Under the pieces are notes generated by a model. That model was not told the origin of the DNA and made no database searches. It saw only the letters and a list, made by a program, of their open reading frames with translations. The position numbers and the translations under genes are program-made. Source: Kiloniella litopenaei (GTDB taxonomy: Bacteria > Pseudomonadota > Alphaproteobacteria > Kiloniellales > Kiloniellaceae). Taken from it: DNA of 64,000 nucleotides. Shown here piece by piece: positions 7,919-52,723 of the stretch (position 1 is its first letter; every line of letters starts with the position of its first letter). Location of the stretch: NCBI RefSeq assembly GCF_000982415.1, contig NZ_LANI01000003.1, positions 372,001-436,000 of the forward strand, read 5' to 3'.

Positions 7919-9145
7919 TTACCCGGTGATTGCCTTCTCAGAAATAAGTTCACGATAAATACCGACTGTCTTGGCACACATCAGTTTTTTCGTGAAAAAT
8001 TTCTGAACCCGTTCCTGCCCCTTGAGTGAGAGGATTTCTCGCTCTCTCGCATTCAGGCTCAATGCCCGGCGAATTGCACGCGCACAGCTTTCAGCATCAC
8101 CGTTTTCAAACAGGAAACCAGTCTCGTTTGGAACCAGCTGCTCCTTTGCACCACCGTGATCACTTGCCACAACGGGGCGCCCCATGGCCTGCCCTTCCGA
8201 CACAACCCGGCCAAAACCTTCGGGATCAGTAGAGGCAGAAACGACAACATCAGACAGCATATAGGCAGAAGGCATGTCATTGCAGTCGTCCATGATGAAA
8301 GCGCGACTCAAAAGATCATTATCCATAATCATCTTTTCCAACTCATCACGATAAGCTGTCCGCCCCTGATCAGACCCGACCAGTGCGCAACATAGATCAA
8401 TATCGCGAAGGTGCGTGAGCGCTTCGAGAAGAACTTTCTGACCTTTCCAGCGCGTCAAACGGCCGGGCAGCATGATAAGCGGAACCCCATCAGGCAAACG
8501 CCATTGCGTCGATAGCTGAATAACGCGCTCGGCACTGACAGCATGCGGCGAAAAGCTATCGGTATCCATGCCTCTGTGAACAATGCGAATTTTGCTTTCA
8601 TCTACCTGATAGTTCTTACGGATATAGTCTGCGACAAACTCTGATATAGAGATGACAACATCACCCTTGGTCATAATCGAATTGTAATATCGCTTAAGAC
8701 CATTGTTGATATTGTATGGCGCGTGGACCGTTGTCACGAAAGGCACCCCGACCTTGCGGGCAGCCCTGTGCGCCGGACGCGCGGGCGCACGAGATCTGGC
8801 GTGCACCAAATCAACACCTCTGTCTTTTATCAGGCGAACAAGACGCCCAGTGTTTCGCCACATCGTCCACGGATTCTTGGAATGTACCGGAAGTTCGACA
8901 TGCTCTGCCCCGGCAATCTTCAGGCGCGCGACCAGCTGTCCGCCACGGGACGCGACGATAGCCTTGCCGCCCGCTTCGATAATGGCCTTTGCCATATCCA
9001 GCGTGCCGCGCTCGACACCACCTGAATCCATAGCAGGTACGACCTGAAGCACCGTCATCGGTGTACCATCAGATTTCACAAGAGAAGGAAGCTCTGGGGT
9101 AGCGGCTTCAGATATCAAAGTGTTAAGGTGAGAAGCATCCGTCAT
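7919..9145 (-). CDS. Glycosyltransferase family 4 (GT-B fold)
   Basis: 408 aa, a retaining GT4-type nucleotide-sugar transferase. The N-terminal Rossmann domain contains VVPAMDSGGVERGTLDMAKAI, with the Gly-rich loop typical of GT4. The C-terminal donor-binding domain has PGRLTRWKGQKVLLEA and the E-x7-E motif in STDPEGFGRVVSEGQAMGRPVVA. No transmembrane segment, so it probably acts at the inner face of the membrane on a lipid-linked or LPS-type acceptor; the acceptor is unknown. ATG 9145 is used. It is divergent from a small hydrolase gene with only 32 bases between start codons, so their promoters overlap the coding starts. Confidence 0.85.
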   Translation of the reverse strand: MTDASHLNTLISEAATPELPSLVKSDGTPMTVLQVVPAMDSGGVERGTLDMAKAIIEAGGKAIVASRGGQLVARLKIAGAEHVELPVHSKNPWTMWRNTGRLVRLIKDRGVDLVHARSRAPARPAHRAARKVGVPFVTTVHAPYNINNGLKRYYNSIMTKGDVVISISEFVADYIRKNYQVDESKIRIVHRGMDTDSFSPHAVSAERVIQLSTQWRLPDGVPLIMLPGRLTRWKGQKVLLEALTHLRDIDLCCALVGSDQGRTAYRDELEKMIMDNDLLSRAFIMDDCNDMPSAYMLSDVVVSASTDPEGFGRVVSEGQAMGRPVVASDHGGAKEQLVPNETGFLFENGDAESCARAIRRALSLNAREREILSLKGQERVQKFFTKKLMCAKTVGIYRELISEKAITG

Positions 9146-9177: not shown

Positions 9178-9975
9178 ATGTCCAATAATGATACAGCGCC
9201 CAATAGTGATACAGAGTTCACTTCACAAATTCCAGAATTTCTCGAACGCCCTAATGGGCAGCATATAGCCTATATAAAGACAGAAGGCGATAAGGATTTA
9301 CCGGGAATCGTCTTTCTGGGTGGCTATATGTCCGACATGACGGGTTCGAAAGCTACTGCGCTGGAAGAGTTTGCGAAATCCAGTAAGCAAAATTTTGTCC
9401 GTTTCGATTATATGGGGCATGGGCAATCGTCTGGCAAGTTCACAGATGGCACAATCGGGCAATGGACCGAAGATGCCATTGCCGTTATCGACGAACTGAC
9501 AAGTGGCCCCCAGATATTGGTCGGGTCATCCATGGGGGGCTGGATCATGCTTAATACCGCCCTGAAAAGACCAGAAAGAATCAAAGGTCTTGTCGGTATC
9601 GCTGCCGCCCCTGACTTCACCCAGGACCTAATGTGGGACACCTTTTCACAAGAAATCAAAGATACGCTGTTAAGCGAAGGGGTTTATTACGAACCAAGTG
9701 AATATGGTGACGAGCCCTATGCCATTACCCTGAAACTCATCGAAGAAGGCCGACAACACCTCTTGCTGGACAGGACGCAGCCCATCACTTGCCCCGTCCG
9801 TCTGATTCAAGGCATGAAGGACGTCGATGTACCCTGGAATATTGTCCCCAGAATTGTCGAGTCGCTTGAAACTGATGACATGGAAGTCGTTCTGGTAAAA
9901 ACTGGTGATCATCGCCTTTCTGAACCACAAGATATACAACGACTTAAGAAAATTGTTAAAGAGATCAGTCGTTAA
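9178..9975 (+). CDS. Alpha/beta hydrolase
   Basis: 265 aa alpha/beta hydrolase of the carboxylesterase/lysophospholipase-like type. The nucleophile elbow is GSSMGGW (Ser about residue 116). An acidic residue lies in QGMKDVDVPW and the catalytic His in KTGDHRLSE near residue 243, so the triad is complete. The oxyanion-loop region is FLGGYMSDMTGSKA. No signal peptide, so it is cytosolic. A clear AAGGAG lies 13 bases before ATG 9178. Terminates at a hairpin about 35 bases downstream. Substrate unknown. Confidence 0.8.
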   Translation: MSNNDTAPNSDTEFTSQIPEFLERPNGQHIAYIKTEGDKDLPGIVFLGGYMSDMTGSKATALEEFAKSSKQNFVRFDYMGHGQSSGKFTDGTIGQWTEDAIAVIDELTSGPQILVGSSMGGWIMLNTALKRPERIKGLVGIAAAPDFTQDLMWDTFSQEIKDTLLSEGVYYEPSEYGDEPYAITLKLIEEGRQHLLLDRTQPITCPVRLIQGMKDVDVPWNIVPRIVESLETDDMEVVLVKTGDHRLSEPQDIQRLKKIVKEISR

Positions 9976-46333: not shown

Positions 46334-46534
46334 TTCGTCAGACTACCACAGGTAGCGTCGGAAAAAAGGGTCTATTCATTTTGCCCCCAAGAATAATCAA
46401 GTGGATAATTGATTATGGAAACAAATACTTAATCGAGAACACTTTGTGGCAAACTGATGCCGCATATTGTACTTTGTTTCATCAAGGCACACCTAATAAG
46501 GCAAAGAGATAATATTTCGGGAGCAGATAAGATC

Positions 46535-47491
46535 ATGTCACAGAGGATCAAGGTTCTTATTAATGCAATCAAGGATCAAGCCCTCAATATCAAGACCTAT
46601 GAACTTGTTAGTCCTGACGGCACCCCACTTCCCTCTTTTACCCCCGGGGCTCATATTGACTTCTTTCTAAGCAATGATCTGATCAGGCAATATTCCCTGT
46701 CCAATTCTGCCGATGAGAGAAACAGATATGTAGTTGGTATCCAAAAAGAAGAACAAGGCCGTGGCGGATCACGTCTTATCCACGATCAATTCAAGGTTGG
46801 TGACGAAATCGAAATTTCCTCCCCTAGAAATAACTTCGAGCTGGATGAGACAGCCCAACGCTATAAACTGATTGCGGGGGGAATTGGCATTACACCTATT
46901 ATGTCTATGGCCCGTCGATTAAAAGCTATCGGCAAACCCTTTCAGCTCTATTACGCCTGTCGTAATGAACAGCGGGCCGCTTTCATCGAAGAACTGAGAT
47001 CAACTGAACTCTCAAAGCATGTGGTGCTGTCTTATGATGATGTTCACGGACCTCTCAACACCCTGGCTCTCTTCGGGCGCCCTGAACCAAACGTACAGAT
47101 ATATTGCTGTGGCCCGACGGGGTTGATGGATGCCGTTAAATCAGCGACCGTTTCCTGGCCAGAAGAAAGTGTTCGGTTTGAACATTTCTCTGCTGGCGAA
47201 GACACTGGCTCGCGAAAAGATGATGGCAGTTTCGATGTCGTTATCCAAAGTACGGGGCGTGTTTTACAAATACCAGCAGATAAAAGCATACTGAGCGTTC
47301 TGGAAGAAAATGGCATCTTTATCGATCATGCCTGTTGCGAAGGAATCTGTGGCACATGTGAAACAGGCCTTATTGACGGAGAGGCTGACCACAGGGACAT
47401 GATTTTAACCGAAGCAGAAAAAGAGAAGAATCAACAGATCATGGTTTGTTGTTCCAGAGCAAAAACACCTATACTAACACTCGATCTCTAA
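46535..47491 (+). CDS. PDR/VanB family ferredoxin-linked oxidoreductase (FMN/FAD-NAD-2Fe2S)
   Basis: About 318 aa. In order: flavin domain (RQYSLSNSADERNRYVVGIQ), NAD domain (KLIAGGIGITPIMSMA and IYCCGPTGLMDAV) and a C-terminal 2Fe-2S ferredoxin with ligands in DHACCEGICGTCETG and a later Cys near IMVCCSRAK. The DHRD stretch is typical of VanB-type reductases that serve Rieske oxygenases. ATG 46535 has GGGAG upstream; the earlier start at 46457 adds unrelated residues. No oxygenase gene is directly adjacent; the gbcA-like gene is 3.5 kb downstream, with its own reductase. Confidence 0.9.
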   Translation: MSQRIKVLINAIKDQALNIKTYELVSPDGTPLPSFTPGAHIDFFLSNDLIRQYSLSNSADERNRYVVGIQKEEQGRGGSRLIHDQFKVGDEIEISSPRNNFELDETAQRYKLIAGGIGITPIMSMARRLKAIGKPFQLYYACRNEQRAAFIEELRSTELSKHVVLSYDDVHGPLNTLALFGRPEPNVQIYCCGPTGLMDAVKSATVSWPEESVRFEHFSAGEDTGSRKDDGSFDVVIQSTGRVLQIPADKSILSVLEENGIFIDHACCEGICGTCETGLIDGEADHRDMILTEAEKEKNQQIMVCCSRAKTPILTLDL

Positions 47492-49552: not shown

Positions 49553-49732
49553 AAAAAAAATTCCATGATTTTCAAATATTCACGACATCTTTTACCATAG
49601 TAACGACCTATTTCGACAAGCATAATTGACAGTGTCGCAAACGTCGGTCTCGTTGTCGTTTTTCAAGGCGACCACGCGACATGCTTTCATAAAATTAGCT
49701 ATAGAAATAAATTTAATAATGACAACTCCTAC

Positions 49733-49975
49733 AGGTGTTTCATGGAATTAAAGGTTTGATTTCATGAAAATAATTGGGAAGTCGGTCCGCGCAAATTCAC
49801 GTCCCACAGCGCAAACCCGACGCTGCCCCCGCAACGGTAGGAGAGGAATAGAGACCACACGGTATCCACTGGATTAACTCTGGGAAGGATGTGATCTCTG
49901 CCATAATTTATGGCCCTCTCGAGCCCGGAAACCAGCCTGAGGCAAGTCTAGTAGTCGCGGTGGGCGATTGGAACG
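49733..49975 (+). ncRNA. Cobalamin (B12) riboswitch
   Basis: Aptamer segments seen in order: GGGAAGTCGGT (49776-49786), CCGAC (49817-49821) pairing with GTCGG, the highly conserved core GCTGCCCCCGCAACGGTA (49822-49839), CCACTGG and TGGGAAGG (49881-49888), and a B12-box region GAGCCCGGAAACCAGCCTGA (49921-49940). This is a near-textbook cobalamin aptamer. It is followed by about 130 bases of expression platform before the Rieske gene. Boundaries are approximate; the aptamer likely ends near 49960. Most of the 552-base gap 49553-50104 is this leader. Confidence 0.93.
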
Positions 49976-50104
49976 ACCTGTTGATCTTTGCACAGCATAG
50001 AAGCGTGCCAAAGACACTGCTGTTCCTTATCCCCGTCGCTCGTCAGAATTTACCACTCAGAGAACAATATCTGAGAAACGCTTGTTGCTGGATAGGACCG
50101 AGAG

Positions 50105-51355
50105 ATGACTGTATCAGCCCACGACACAATGTTTGACCTGCTTCGCAGTAAAAAACAGAACTACAGCCTACCGCGAGAATTCTATAACGATCCGGATTTC
50201 TTCAAGCTCGATATGGAACACGTCTTCGGGAAATCATGGATTTTTGCCGGTCTGGTTTGCGACATCCCCAAGCCGGGAAACTTCTTTACCCTGTCAATTG
50301 GTGATGATCCCCTGGTGATTGTCAGAGACGACAACAGCGAAATCCACGCAATCTATAACACCTGTCGCCATCGGGGTTCCAAAGTCTGCCTGGAAGAAAA
50401 GGGACACACTGCAAAACTGGTTTGTCCCTATCACCAATGGACCTACAATCTAGATGGCAACCTGCTTTTTGCCGGTAACATGGGCGAAGGTTTCAATCCT
50501 GCCGATTTCCCCTTGAGAAAAGCGAACATTGGCATTGCTGGCGGTATGATCTTTGTCTGCCTTGACGAAAATCCCCCGGCATTTGCCCCCTTTAAAGAAG
50601 CGGTTGAGCCTTTCTTGAAGCCACATGCATTGGACAGGGCAAAAGTAGCCCATGAGATCACAATCAGTGAAAAGGCTAACTGGAAGCTGGTGATCGAAAA
50701 CAATCGCGAATGTTATCACTGCAATGGCTCACACCCCGAGCTTCTGAATTCACTGCTCGAATTCGACAATACAGATGATCCCCGCGCCACCCCCGAGTTC
50801 AAAGCACTGGTCGCGAAAAAAGCAAGTGACTGGGATGCCCTGGGCATCGCCCATGAAAGTACCCCGCACAATCTGGAATTCCGCGCTGTGCGCATGCCGT
50901 TGGCTGAGGGCATTCATTCCATGACCATGGATGGAAGCGTCGCCTGTCAGAAGCTGATGGGGGATCTTACCGACCCTGATATGGGGTCAATGCGGTTATT
51001 GCACCTGCCCAATACCTGGAACCATTTCATGGGGGATCATTCCATTGTCTTTCGCGTGATGCCCGTTGGTCCGCAAGAGACATTGGTGACAACCAAATGG
51101 ATTGTCCACGAAGGTGCCGTAGAAGGCGTCGATTATGATCTGGAAAAAATGGTCAAGGTCTGGAACGCCACAAATCATCAGGACAGAGAGCTGGCGGAAA
51201 ACAATCAACTGGGTATTAATTCGAAAGCATACCAGCCCGGTCCTTATGCTGAAGGTGCCGAGTTTGGCGTTATCAACTTCATTAACTGGTATAGCGCCCA
51301 TATGCTCGGAAAACTGTTTGACCCGGCCAAAATTCAACTCGCTGCTGGCGAATAA
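50105..51355 (+). CDS. gbcA: Rieske [2Fe-2S] aromatic-ring-type oxygenase, glycine-betaine-demethylase-like (alpha subunit)
   Basis: 416 aa. The Rieske cluster ligands are in CRHRGSK and CPYHQW (C-x-H, then C-x2-H). The mononuclear iron site is in ENNRECYHCNGSHPE (two His). Size and overall sequence fit GbcA, which oxidatively demethylates glycine betaine to dimethylglycine, and related quaternary-amine Rieske enzymes (carnitine and stachydrine demethylases). The substrate assignment is by similarity and by the gbcB partner. ATG 50105 is preceded by GAG; the gene is downstream of a B12 riboswitch. Confidence 0.85.
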   Translation: MTVSAHDTMFDLLRSKKQNYSLPREFYNDPDFFKLDMEHVFGKSWIFAGLVCDIPKPGNFFTLSIGDDPLVIVRDDNSEIHAIYNTCRHRGSKVCLEEKGHTAKLVCPYHQWTYNLDGNLLFAGNMGEGFNPADFPLRKANIGIAGGMIFVCLDENPPAFAPFKEAVEPFLKPHALDRAKVAHEITISEKANWKLVIENNRECYHCNGSHPELLNSLLEFDNTDDPRATPEFKALVAKKASDWDALGIAHESTPHNLEFRAVRMPLAEGIHSMTMDGSVACQKLMGDLTDPDMGSMRLLHLPNTWNHFMGDHSIVFRVMPVGPQETLVTTKWIVHEGAVEGVDYDLEKMVKVWNATNHQDRELAENNQLGINSKAYQPGPYAEGAEFGVINFINWYSAHMLGKLFDPAKIQLAAGE

Positions 51356-51449
51356 ATATTTCTATCAACACAGTAAATCTAAGAGGGCGCAAAGCTGCGT
51401 CCTCAATAATCAAAAAGCCCAAAAGGGCGACTAATTGGGGAACTCTACA

Positions 51450-52547
51450 ATGGCTGAACTAGCTGTTAAGCAGGCTATCAGAGATTTGAACACAACAACG
51501 CCGTGGGATAGCCACTCGCAGATGTTAGAGTGCGTGATGATCCTTCAGGATACACATGACGTCAAAACTTTTTGCTTTCAAACCACAGACAACAGCTGGT
51601 TCCGTTACCTACCCGGACAGTTCATTACCATTGAACTGGAAATTGACGGCAAACCCGTTCTACGAACCTACACCCTGTCTTCCAGTCCATCCCGCCCCTT
51701 GTCTATTTCCATCACCGTTAAGGCAAACAAAGATGGTTACGCATCTCGCTGGTTACACGAAAACCTGAAAGAGGGGGATAAAATCAAGGCTCATGGCCCC
51801 GCAGGTCTCTTTACTCTGCACAACCACATGGCAGATAAATATCTCTTCATTTCAGGCGGGGCAGGCATTACACCGACACTTTCCATGACGCGCTGGCTTT
51901 TTGATTATGGTATCCACACAGATGTGCATTTCATTCACTGCGCGCGCACACCTTCGGACATTATCGCCCGCCGAGAACTGGAAAGCATGAGCGCACGTGT
52001 CAGCGACATTAAGGTTGCCTTCGCCTGTGAAGAACCCGATCCATACGGTGCCTGGACTGGCTATACCGGCCGCCTCAATCAATTGATGCTGGAACTGATT
52101 TCACCGGATTATCAGGATCGGGAAATCTTCTGTTGTGGGCCTGCCCCCTTTATGCAGGCCGTGCGAGATATTCTGAATGCCGCGGGCTTTAACATGGACC
52201 AATACCATGAAGAAAGTTTTGACGCGCCGATCATCGAAGAAGAAGATCGTCCAGATCATGATGACGTTATCATTGATGACGATGCCAAATCCTCTGTAAC
52301 CTTCACAAAGTCCAAAAAAGATACTCGCGTTCAGGAATCAGACACAATTCTGGCCGCTGCCAAGAAAACAGGTCTTCATATTCCAAGTGCCTGTCAGTTT
52401 GGTGTTTGTGGAACCTGTAAGGTTAAAAAGATTTCCGGCGAGGTCCACATGGTCCATAACGGTGGCATTACCCAGGAACAGATCGACGATGGTTATGTTC
52501 TGGCCTGCTGTTCCAATCCGTTAGGGGATGTCGTTATCGACTTCTAA
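51450..52547 (+). CDS. gbcB: Ferredoxin reductase partner of GbcA (GbcB-like)
   Basis: About 365 aa. FAD (RTYTLSSSPSRPLSISITVK) and NAD domains (SGGAGITPTLSMTRW and FCCGPAPFMQAV), then a C-terminal 2Fe-2S ferredoxin, ligands in CQFGVCGTC and a fourth Cys in LACCSN. Layout is that of the GbcB type. TTG 51435 precedes, but ATG 51450 has GGGGA upstream and fits the family start. 94 bases after gbcA, likely cotranscribed and under the same B12 riboswitch. Confidence 0.88.
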   Translation: MAELAVKQAIRDLNTTTPWDSHSQMLECVMILQDTHDVKTFCFQTTDNSWFRYLPGQFITIELEIDGKPVLRTYTLSSSPSRPLSISITVKANKDGYASRWLHENLKEGDKIKAHGPAGLFTLHNHMADKYLFISGGAGITPTLSMTRWLFDYGIHTDVHFIHCARTPSDIIARRELESMSARVSDIKVAFACEEPDPYGAWTGYTGRLNQLMLELISPDYQDREIFCCGPAPFMQAVRDILNAAGFNMDQYHEESFDAPIIEEEDRPDHDDVIIDDDAKSSVTFTKSKKDTRVQESDTILAAAKKTGLHIPSACQFGVCGTCKVKKISGEVHMVHNGGITQEQIDDGYVLACCSNPLGDVVIDF

Positions 52548-52723
52548 AACACGTTTGTCGCAGAGATGATTACGCACCGGGTCATCTCTGCACAACCAAT
52601 GCCCCCTGTAAAACGCCCTTGTGCCTAATGGTCACAAATCTTTTCCCAACTTTCCTGTCGTCTCTTCAAATTTCTGACGCTATTGTTGATCACAAACAAA
52701 CGAAAACAGGGAAGCAAGAGATC

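Follow-up and report, generated by a model that had tools for sequence, protein, structure and literature searches.

A distinct cobalamin riboswitch subtype upstream of a GbcA-type Rieske oxygenase gene in Kiloniella litopenaei, and its possible part in a choice between two betaine demethylation routes

Glycine betaine, of major importance both as osmolyte and as nutrient, can be taken apart by bacteria with or without vitamin B12 (cobalamin). In a 64,000-nucleotide stretch of the genome of Kiloniella litopenaei (contig NZ_LANI01000003.1, positions 372,001 to 436,000; hereafter the window, whose numbering is used unless a contig or locus is named), a cobalamin riboswitch aptamer stands before the genes of a GbcA-type Rieske oxygenase and a GbcB-type reductase, and the same genome encodes homologues of a corrinoid-dependent route, the Mtg route, for the same task. 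The reading we favour, at a probability of about 0.72 and on the strength of sequence comparison, is that a B12 switch controls gbcAB, an oxygen-dependent and B12-free alternative to the Mtg route, and keeps it off when B12 is plentiful, the cell probably swapping between two ways of demethylating betaine according to its B12 supply. The features of the operon are:

49716-49954, forward strand: cobalamin riboswitch aptamer, gbc subtype (RF00174, 95.6 bits against a cut-off of 31.5, E 1.5e-22, full model 1-189)
50105-51355, forward strand: GbcA-type Rieske oxygenase (NCBIfam GbcA, NF058607, 655 bits against a curated cut-off of 670)
51450-52547, forward strand: GbcB-type reductase with FAD, NAD and 2Fe-2S parts (NCBIfam GbcB, 446 against a cut-off of 500)
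52560-52591, forward strand: 10-bp perfect inverted repeat 3' of gbcB, without a T run, a possible operon end (from sequence and fold)

The aptamer is the single Rfam match in the whole window (cmscan at the gathering cut-off); its core, GCTGCCCCCGCAAC, begins at 49822, the B12 box lies at about 49919-49937, and 150 nt separate the end of the match from the oxygenase ATG at 50105. An earlier sequence-only reading of this DNA had named a near-textbook B12 aptamer here and suggested an RF00174 search as a check; run on the whole window, that search returned a match far above the gathering cut-off, with core and box where they had been placed, and the presence of the aptamer before the oxygenase gene is thereby confirmed at the level of the RNA family. 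It presumably binds a corrinoid and alters gene expression in response. The same reading had called the two genes gbcA and gbcB: GbcA and GbcB are indeed the best-scoring families, and GbcA-type is right, whereas a certified GbcA it is not, the NCBIfam cut-offs having been missed. Because both scores fall just below these cut-offs we write 'GbcA-type' and 'GbcB-type', and the GbcA model is likewise missed by the alphaproteobacterial locus L125 (635 bits) and by Rhodoferax (626). The Rieske and Ring_hydroxyl_A domains of the oxygenase, as well as three domains of the reductase, exceed their Pfam cut-offs. In two quick trees the oxygenase clusters with gammaproteobacterial GbcA and not with the stachydrine demethylase Stc2 (95 and 93 in the Shimodaira-Hasegawa-like approximate likelihood ratio test, SH-aLRT), and clade and family score together point to glycine betaine as its substrate. 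The genome holds one GbcA homologue. The reductase more likely starts, in our reading, at ATG 51450 than at TTG 51435, and the two genes likely form one operon. A second reductase of the FAD/NAD/2Fe-2S type lies at 46457-47491, below all NCBIfam cut-offs and with no oxygenase seen adjoining it.

Judged by homology, the oxygenase and corrinoid routes are both present in this genome (4.31 Mb in 85 contigs), which carries five MttB-superfamily genes (PF06253) above cut-off. The copy on contig C21 is 71-72% identical to the MttB protein of the Sinorhizobium meliloti mtg cluster, and its neighbours are a GbdR-like regulator (408 bits against a cut-off of 480) and an FAD-oxidoreductase/GcvT-type protein that we read as a relative of dimethylglycine and sarcosine dehydrogenases. 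A run of genes on contig C33 encodes a corrinoid protein that has the two B12-binding domains, then DUF1638 and Virulence_fact proteins, then a protein like methylenetetrahydrofolate reductase (MTHFR) and lastly a pterin-type methyltransferase (MtgD), of which the contig end leaves only the first 93 amino acids. The S. meliloti cluster has this same gene order, plus bmt and an ASKHA protein. Identity to its members is 83-86% for the corrinoid protein (MtgC-like), 48 and 52% for the DUF1638 and Virulence_fact proteins, and 65% between the MtgD fragment and the methyltetrahydrofolate cobalamin methyltransferase; the MTHFR-like protein gave no match to the cluster at 1e-10. A bmt/MtgE homologue scores above its cut-off (498 against 338). 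Passages of PMC12478193, in which corrinoid-dependent glycine betaine breakdown in aerobes was first shown in 2025, place MtgBCDE together in S. meliloti, distinguish aerobic from anaerobic MtgC, and report, from mutants of Ruegeria pomeroyi, that in this species MtgC and MtgD serve betaine demethylation and methionine synthesis alike.

The genome also offers a pairing of a more familiar kind. It has six RF00174 matches, the gbcA leader included, and of the others one precedes a BtuFCD-like transporter, one the class I ribonucleotide reductase genes nrdAB (PRK07207, 1676 bits), one a DUF4198/cobalt-transport operon, one a DUF4198 gene, and one (C23:13329-13545; 9329-9545 of locus L017) a small open reading frame without family match followed by a MATE transporter, some of these gene names being our reading of translations. 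The B12-dependent NrdJ is encoded elsewhere (572 bits over its frame, cut-off 400); with a riboswitch-led NrdAB as well, the genome therefore already pairs a B12-free with a B12-dependent enzyme. MetE was not found (no PF01717 match in the genome), nor was a B12-binding protein of MetH size, the three PF02310 matches lying in frames of 234, 701 and 714 amino acids.

Among relatives, the leader is kept throughout the order and is patchy beyond it. Homologues at E<=1e-80 occur in 11 of the 61 genomes of the order sample, and RF00174 lies above cut-off at all 11 loci; within the genus six of nine genomes carry one (88-100% identity), each with the leader. Three genus genomes (G045, G046 and G048; completeness 77, 99 and 97%) have no GbcA homologue at that threshold, and the operon is therefore not universal in the genus. 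The class sample added homologues in 37 of 385 genomes, with 42 matches, two of them common to the order set; among the 51 distinct alphaproteobacterial loci L148 is without upstream DNA, and 17 of the 50 assessable ones bear a riboswitch. These 17 fall in two regions of the tree, namely the GbcA-type clade, where all eight alphaproteobacterial rows have it, and the clade around Stc2 and 3n0q, with nine rows. When 14 of 336 plasmid records with a match were examined, five loci bore the switch (Shinella PSBB067, S. meliloti Ak57, Phaeobacter gallaeciensis, Ruegeria TM1040 and Gemmobacter fulvus) and nine showed none (Ancylobacter, Paracoccus denitrificans, P. yeei, P. pantotrophus, an Agrobacterium plasmid, Cereibacter sphaeroides, Sagittula, Roseivivax and the S. 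meliloti stc locus, L213); aptamer similarity yielded two more Rieske loci, in Tritonibacter scottomollicae and Cereibacter azotoformans. Of 80 gamma- and betaproteobacterial gbcA loci only that of the betaproteobacterium Rhodoferax lacus has the riboswitch (110.7 bits with the Rfam model), L082 among the 79 negatives offering just 339 nt of upstream DNA. In a sample of 399 Burkholderiales genomes, 16 homologue loci besides Rhodoferax, none with a riboswitch, place 15 of their number in a separate clade and one, L185, within the Stc2-type group.

Wherever a genome with the switch was examined for MttB, MttB was found as well. MttB is present in 32 of the 46 homologue-bearing alphaproteobacterial genomes, and the riboswitch at 17 of 33 assessable loci of MttB-positive genomes versus none of the 17 loci of MttB-negative ones, with the proviso that the homologue-bearing drafts are as little as 74% complete and that an absence of MttB may be an assembly gap. 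MttB was examined in 50 of the 80 gamma- and betaproteobacterial genomes (the 16 Burkholderiales loci stand outside the comparison) and occurs in two, Rhodoferax, with five genes and the riboswitch, and Nitrincola, with one gene; the other 48 have neither MttB nor riboswitch. Both are on record in S. meliloti Ak57 and Shinella PSBB067, and in S. meliloti riboswitch, Rieske gene and mtg cluster share one record, with no RF00174 match in the mtg region itself. In all, the 20 riboswitch-bearing genomes examined for MttB are all positive, a count that leaves out Phaeobacter, TM1040, Gemmobacter, Tritonibacter and Cereibacter azotoformans. Fisher tests give p 0.0003 for the alphaproteobacteria and 2e-10 combined, and are not relied on, as they take related loci as independent and L148 as a negative. 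The association, whose exceptions run one way (MttB without the switch), is suggestive and not proven. The sequence-only reading had proposed that the switch silences the oxygenase when B12 allows a corrinoid route, leaving it to searches of the genome and of relatives whether that route and that leader exist: the five PF06253 genes and the MtgC/DUF1638/MtgD cluster supply the former by homology, the latter is kept in the order, in Stc2-type relatives and in Rhodoferax, and the switch being seen only in MttB-positive genomes among those examined lends the proposal comparative support.

By their core letters, the gbcA-leader aptamers are a distinct subtype of cobalamin riboswitch. All 23 Rieske-locus aptamers first compared, and five more (two Rieske, three fdhA), share CAAC[G]GT and C[C]GGA[A]ACC[A]GCC, or 28 of 28. 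Ten comparison aptamers (five of the genome's own, four second riboswitches of relatives and one before nrdHIE) have T and A/G/T at the bracketed places, and two before cob genes, in Sphaerotilus and Vitreoscilla, have G and C/G/G. CAAC[G]GT is weakened as a mark of the subtype by the G in those two cob-gene riboswitches; GGA[A]ACC with the following A separates 28 of 28 members from 0 of 12 other aptamers. On our mapping to the structure line of Rfam, the replacements of U-A by G-C and of A-U by U-A appear compensatory, and GGA[A]ACC would have its changed letter in J6/3. Aptamer similarity also placed the subtype 5' of fdhA in three rhizobial records (Shinella WSC3-e, Shinella PSBB067 and Sinorhizobium RAC02), where fdhA encodes a glutathione-independent formaldehyde dehydrogenase (TIGR02819, 715 against a cut-off of 637), and on the Agrobacterium plasmid without the switch a 98.5% identical fdhA directly follows the Rieske-reductase pair. 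Since GbcAB releases formaldehyde, whereas in the Mtg route the methyl goes onto folate (both from passages of PMC12478193), an fdhA under the same subtype agrees with the switch being part of the oxygenase route. Stretches like the subtype, scoring 43-61 bits with model R1 and with box letters changed, were not counted as riboswitches. Such decayed-looking relatives, which may be remnants or else a derived RNA that responds to a different ligand, lie upstream of fdhA in Rhizobium leguminosarum and R. beringeri and upstream of a Rieske gene in Rhizobium sp. CB3090; the one in S. sojae is followed by no recognised gene.

L220 2458-2658, L224 2458-2659 and L219 2496-2695: fdhA-leader aptamers (two from Shinella, one from Sinorhizobium)
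L227 2507-2641, L228 2507-2639, L230 2505-2639 and L229 2508-2635: decayed-looking relatives of the subtype

How the aptamer might act on the genes is suggested by a hairpin that follows it:

49826-49831, forward strand: L5 loop CCCCCG, partner in the proposed kissing loop (the name L5 is our mapping of the Rfam structure line)
49952-49970, forward strand: hairpin TAGTC-GCGGTGGGC-GATTG, proposed P13/L13, conserved in the six genus leaders, where it comes immediately behind the aptamer

With variants included, and by patterns chosen by eye, this hairpin was seen behind the aptamer in all 23 leaders examined; its letters GCGG may pair with CCGC of L5, and the hairpin, which carries GGTGGG in 14 of the 23 leaders, may pair with L5 in part and over a short stretch. 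Passages of PMC9600662 describe an L5-L13 kissing loop as an established element of cobalamin riboswitches. In the proposed scheme, gbcAB would carry out the first demethylation of glycine betaine in an oxygen-dependent way. With ample cobalamin, the aptamer would bind it, the L5-L13 kissing loop would form and gbcAB would be off, and methyl groups would flow from MtgB to MtgC to MtgD and on to tetrahydrofolate; under a shortage of cobalamin or cobalt, gbcAB would be made, betaine would remain usable, with dimethylglycine and formaldehyde as products, and MtgC, the corrinoid protein shared with methionine synthesis, would be spared for that use. Repression of gbcAB by a cobalamin is thus what we infer, and its benefit would presumably be felt under B12 shortage. 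The start codon lies 98-197 nt from the Rfam match across the 23 leaders, a scan of 49553-50160 brought up no promoter-like or terminator-like site, and in the minimum-energy fold of the whole leader the ribosome site is not clearly sequestered by any pairing. The case for Rho control was too weak to be made (C exceeds G between hairpin and start in 20 of 23 leaders, equals it in one and is lower in two), and a pairing of CCCAC, in the extended loop of the K. litopenaei leader, with GTGGG of the hairpin was dropped, CCCAC being missing from the G047 leader.

Several results weigh against a B12-governed choice between the two routes. P13 stands more than 100 nt away from the start codon with no terminator detected, a layout that suggests no expression platform; the shortfall of 655 against 670 bits leaves the oxygenase outside the curated GbcA family; and the C33 corrinoid protein falls below the NCBI MtgC models, which are built on anaerobic MtgC (201 against 370 bits). 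The riboswitch is absent at 16 of the 33 assessable loci of MttB-positive alphaproteobacterial genomes, two such loci in the Stc2-type clade, L129 and L141, being without RF00174 even at E up to 1, and Nitrincola alkalilacustris (L027, G446), the only gammaproteobacterial genome examined with both GbcA and MttB, lacks it too. A test of independent pairs on the tree found four pairs, of which two to three agree and none disagrees (median p 0.25 over random pairings); it and the second tree drop 15 distant rows, L148 included, and the test also omits rows without a known MttB state and two rows from the Protein Data Bank. This non-significant result favours a reading in which riboswitch and MttB occur together simply through shared alphaproteobacterial ancestry, the riboswitch being old baggage of this gene lineage without tie to the corrinoid route, as does the commonness of MttB, half of the loci in genomes that have it being without the switch. 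We consider that reading very unlikely, however, as a betaproteobacterium, Rhodoferax, has both switch and MttB, as L128 and L136, from MttB-negative genomes within a riboswitch-bearing clade, are without RF00174 even at E up to 1, and as the subtype also stands on fdhA.

That same occurrence on fdhA counts against the idea that GbcAB serves B12 supply, furnishing glycine for 5-aminolevulinate and methyl groups for the corrin ring, and is feedback-repressed like the cob genes. Betaine raises B12 yield in fermentation, and four of the five other riboswitches of the genome precede transport or B12-related genes; yet the subtype is found before Stc2-type genes as well, which have some relatives in proline-betaine contexts (with hpbD or pyrroline-5-carboxylate reductase genes), a route that yields no glycine, and Rhodoferax, which weighs here through the C5 pathway that we assume it to use, carries the switch, making such an origin highly improbable. 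It is unlikely, too, that the switch activates, or senses a form of B12 other than adenosylcobalamin, and that expression of gbcAB goes up with a certain corrinoid state. Known cobalamin riboswitches are mostly repressors, and co-occurrence with MttB and fdhA agrees with repression by B12. In favour of activation or of another ligand are the letters at GGA[A]ACC and the next position, which differ from those of all 12 other aptamers, a change of few binding-site residues being enough to convert ligand preference (passages of PMC9600662), and an activating corrinoid riboswitch that is on record (passages of PMC10653944).

The control of gbcAB by B12 proposed here is of a known kind, a B12 switch on a B12-free alternative enzyme; new about it are the gene controlled, a partner route that is not homologous, and the subtype of the aptamer. 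MetE substitutes for MetH and NrdAB for NrdJ, and the switches before metE and class I nrdAB belong to the same RNA family and have the same presumed logic as the gbcAB leader; here, in contrast, the enzyme is a catabolic oxygenase and its B12-dependent partner an unrelated three-part methyltransferase. GbcAB of Pseudomonas and Chromohalobacter share protein clade and two-gene layout with the K. litopenaei pair and differ in the leader, no riboswitch having been seen at 79 of 80 gamma- and betaproteobacterial loci. With the aerobic MtgBCDE of R. pomeroyi and S. meliloti the genome has in common homologues of MtgB, MtgC, MtgD (in part), MtgE and DUF1638, the difference being that here they coexist with gbcAB, whereas passages of PMC12478193 describe GbcAB bacteria without MtgBCDE and with MetH. 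Stc2 is a related Rieske N-demethylase, several of whose relatives share the leader, but the K. litopenaei oxygenase falls outside the Stc2 clade and the S. meliloti stc locus (L213) has no riboswitch. Searches of the open-licence PubMed Central literature brought up no title or abstract opening linking a cobalamin riboswitch with a betaine, Rieske or stachydrine demethylase; PMC12478193 is the only such paper with both gbcA and riboswitch, the latter word occurring once, in a reference title. Passages of the regulon survey PMC3766115 name isozymes of B12-dependent enzymes as a class, and betaine, Rieske and dioxygenase are absent from its main text. If the proposed control is real, the supply of B12 or cobalt shapes the fate of methyl carbon, methionine synthesis is protected under shortage, and the isozyme rule for B12 switches extends from biosynthesis to catabolism.

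The aptamer subtype is itself a handle for finding further genes of the regulon. More speculatively, and in our judgement doubtful as a whole, the gbc subtype might be tuned to another corrinoid state (for example the methyl or aquo form used by MtgC) and govern a small regulon of Rieske N-demethylases and formaldehyde dehydrogenase, the B12-free, oxygen-using half of a two-route methylamine economy with which soil and marine bacteria would shift the fate of methyl groups, to formaldehyde or to methyl-folate, with B12 supply. On contig C23 (L014 1514-6572) an MttB-type gene stands with an enolase-superfamily gene and a gene of the Old Yellow Enzyme (OYE) family, perhaps a corrinoid proline-betaine route; this OYE is 77% identical to the one directly upstream of the Stc2-type Rieske gene in Roseivivax, as if both kinds of demethylase were interchangeable in that pathway. 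At L166 of genome G436 two divergent cobalamin riboswitches lie back to back, at 9200-9347 (forward strand) and 8858-8993 (reverse strand), one before an Stc2-type Rieske gene and the other before the large subunit of a class I ribonucleotide reductase (PRK09102, 1017 against 620 bits). Two further cobalamin riboswitches, at L169 14849-14998 and L174 11902-12046 (both reverse strand), precede genes that start with a DUF1289 domain, the L169 gene combining DUF1289 with DUF6925 (Pfam) and the L174 gene being similar by eye.

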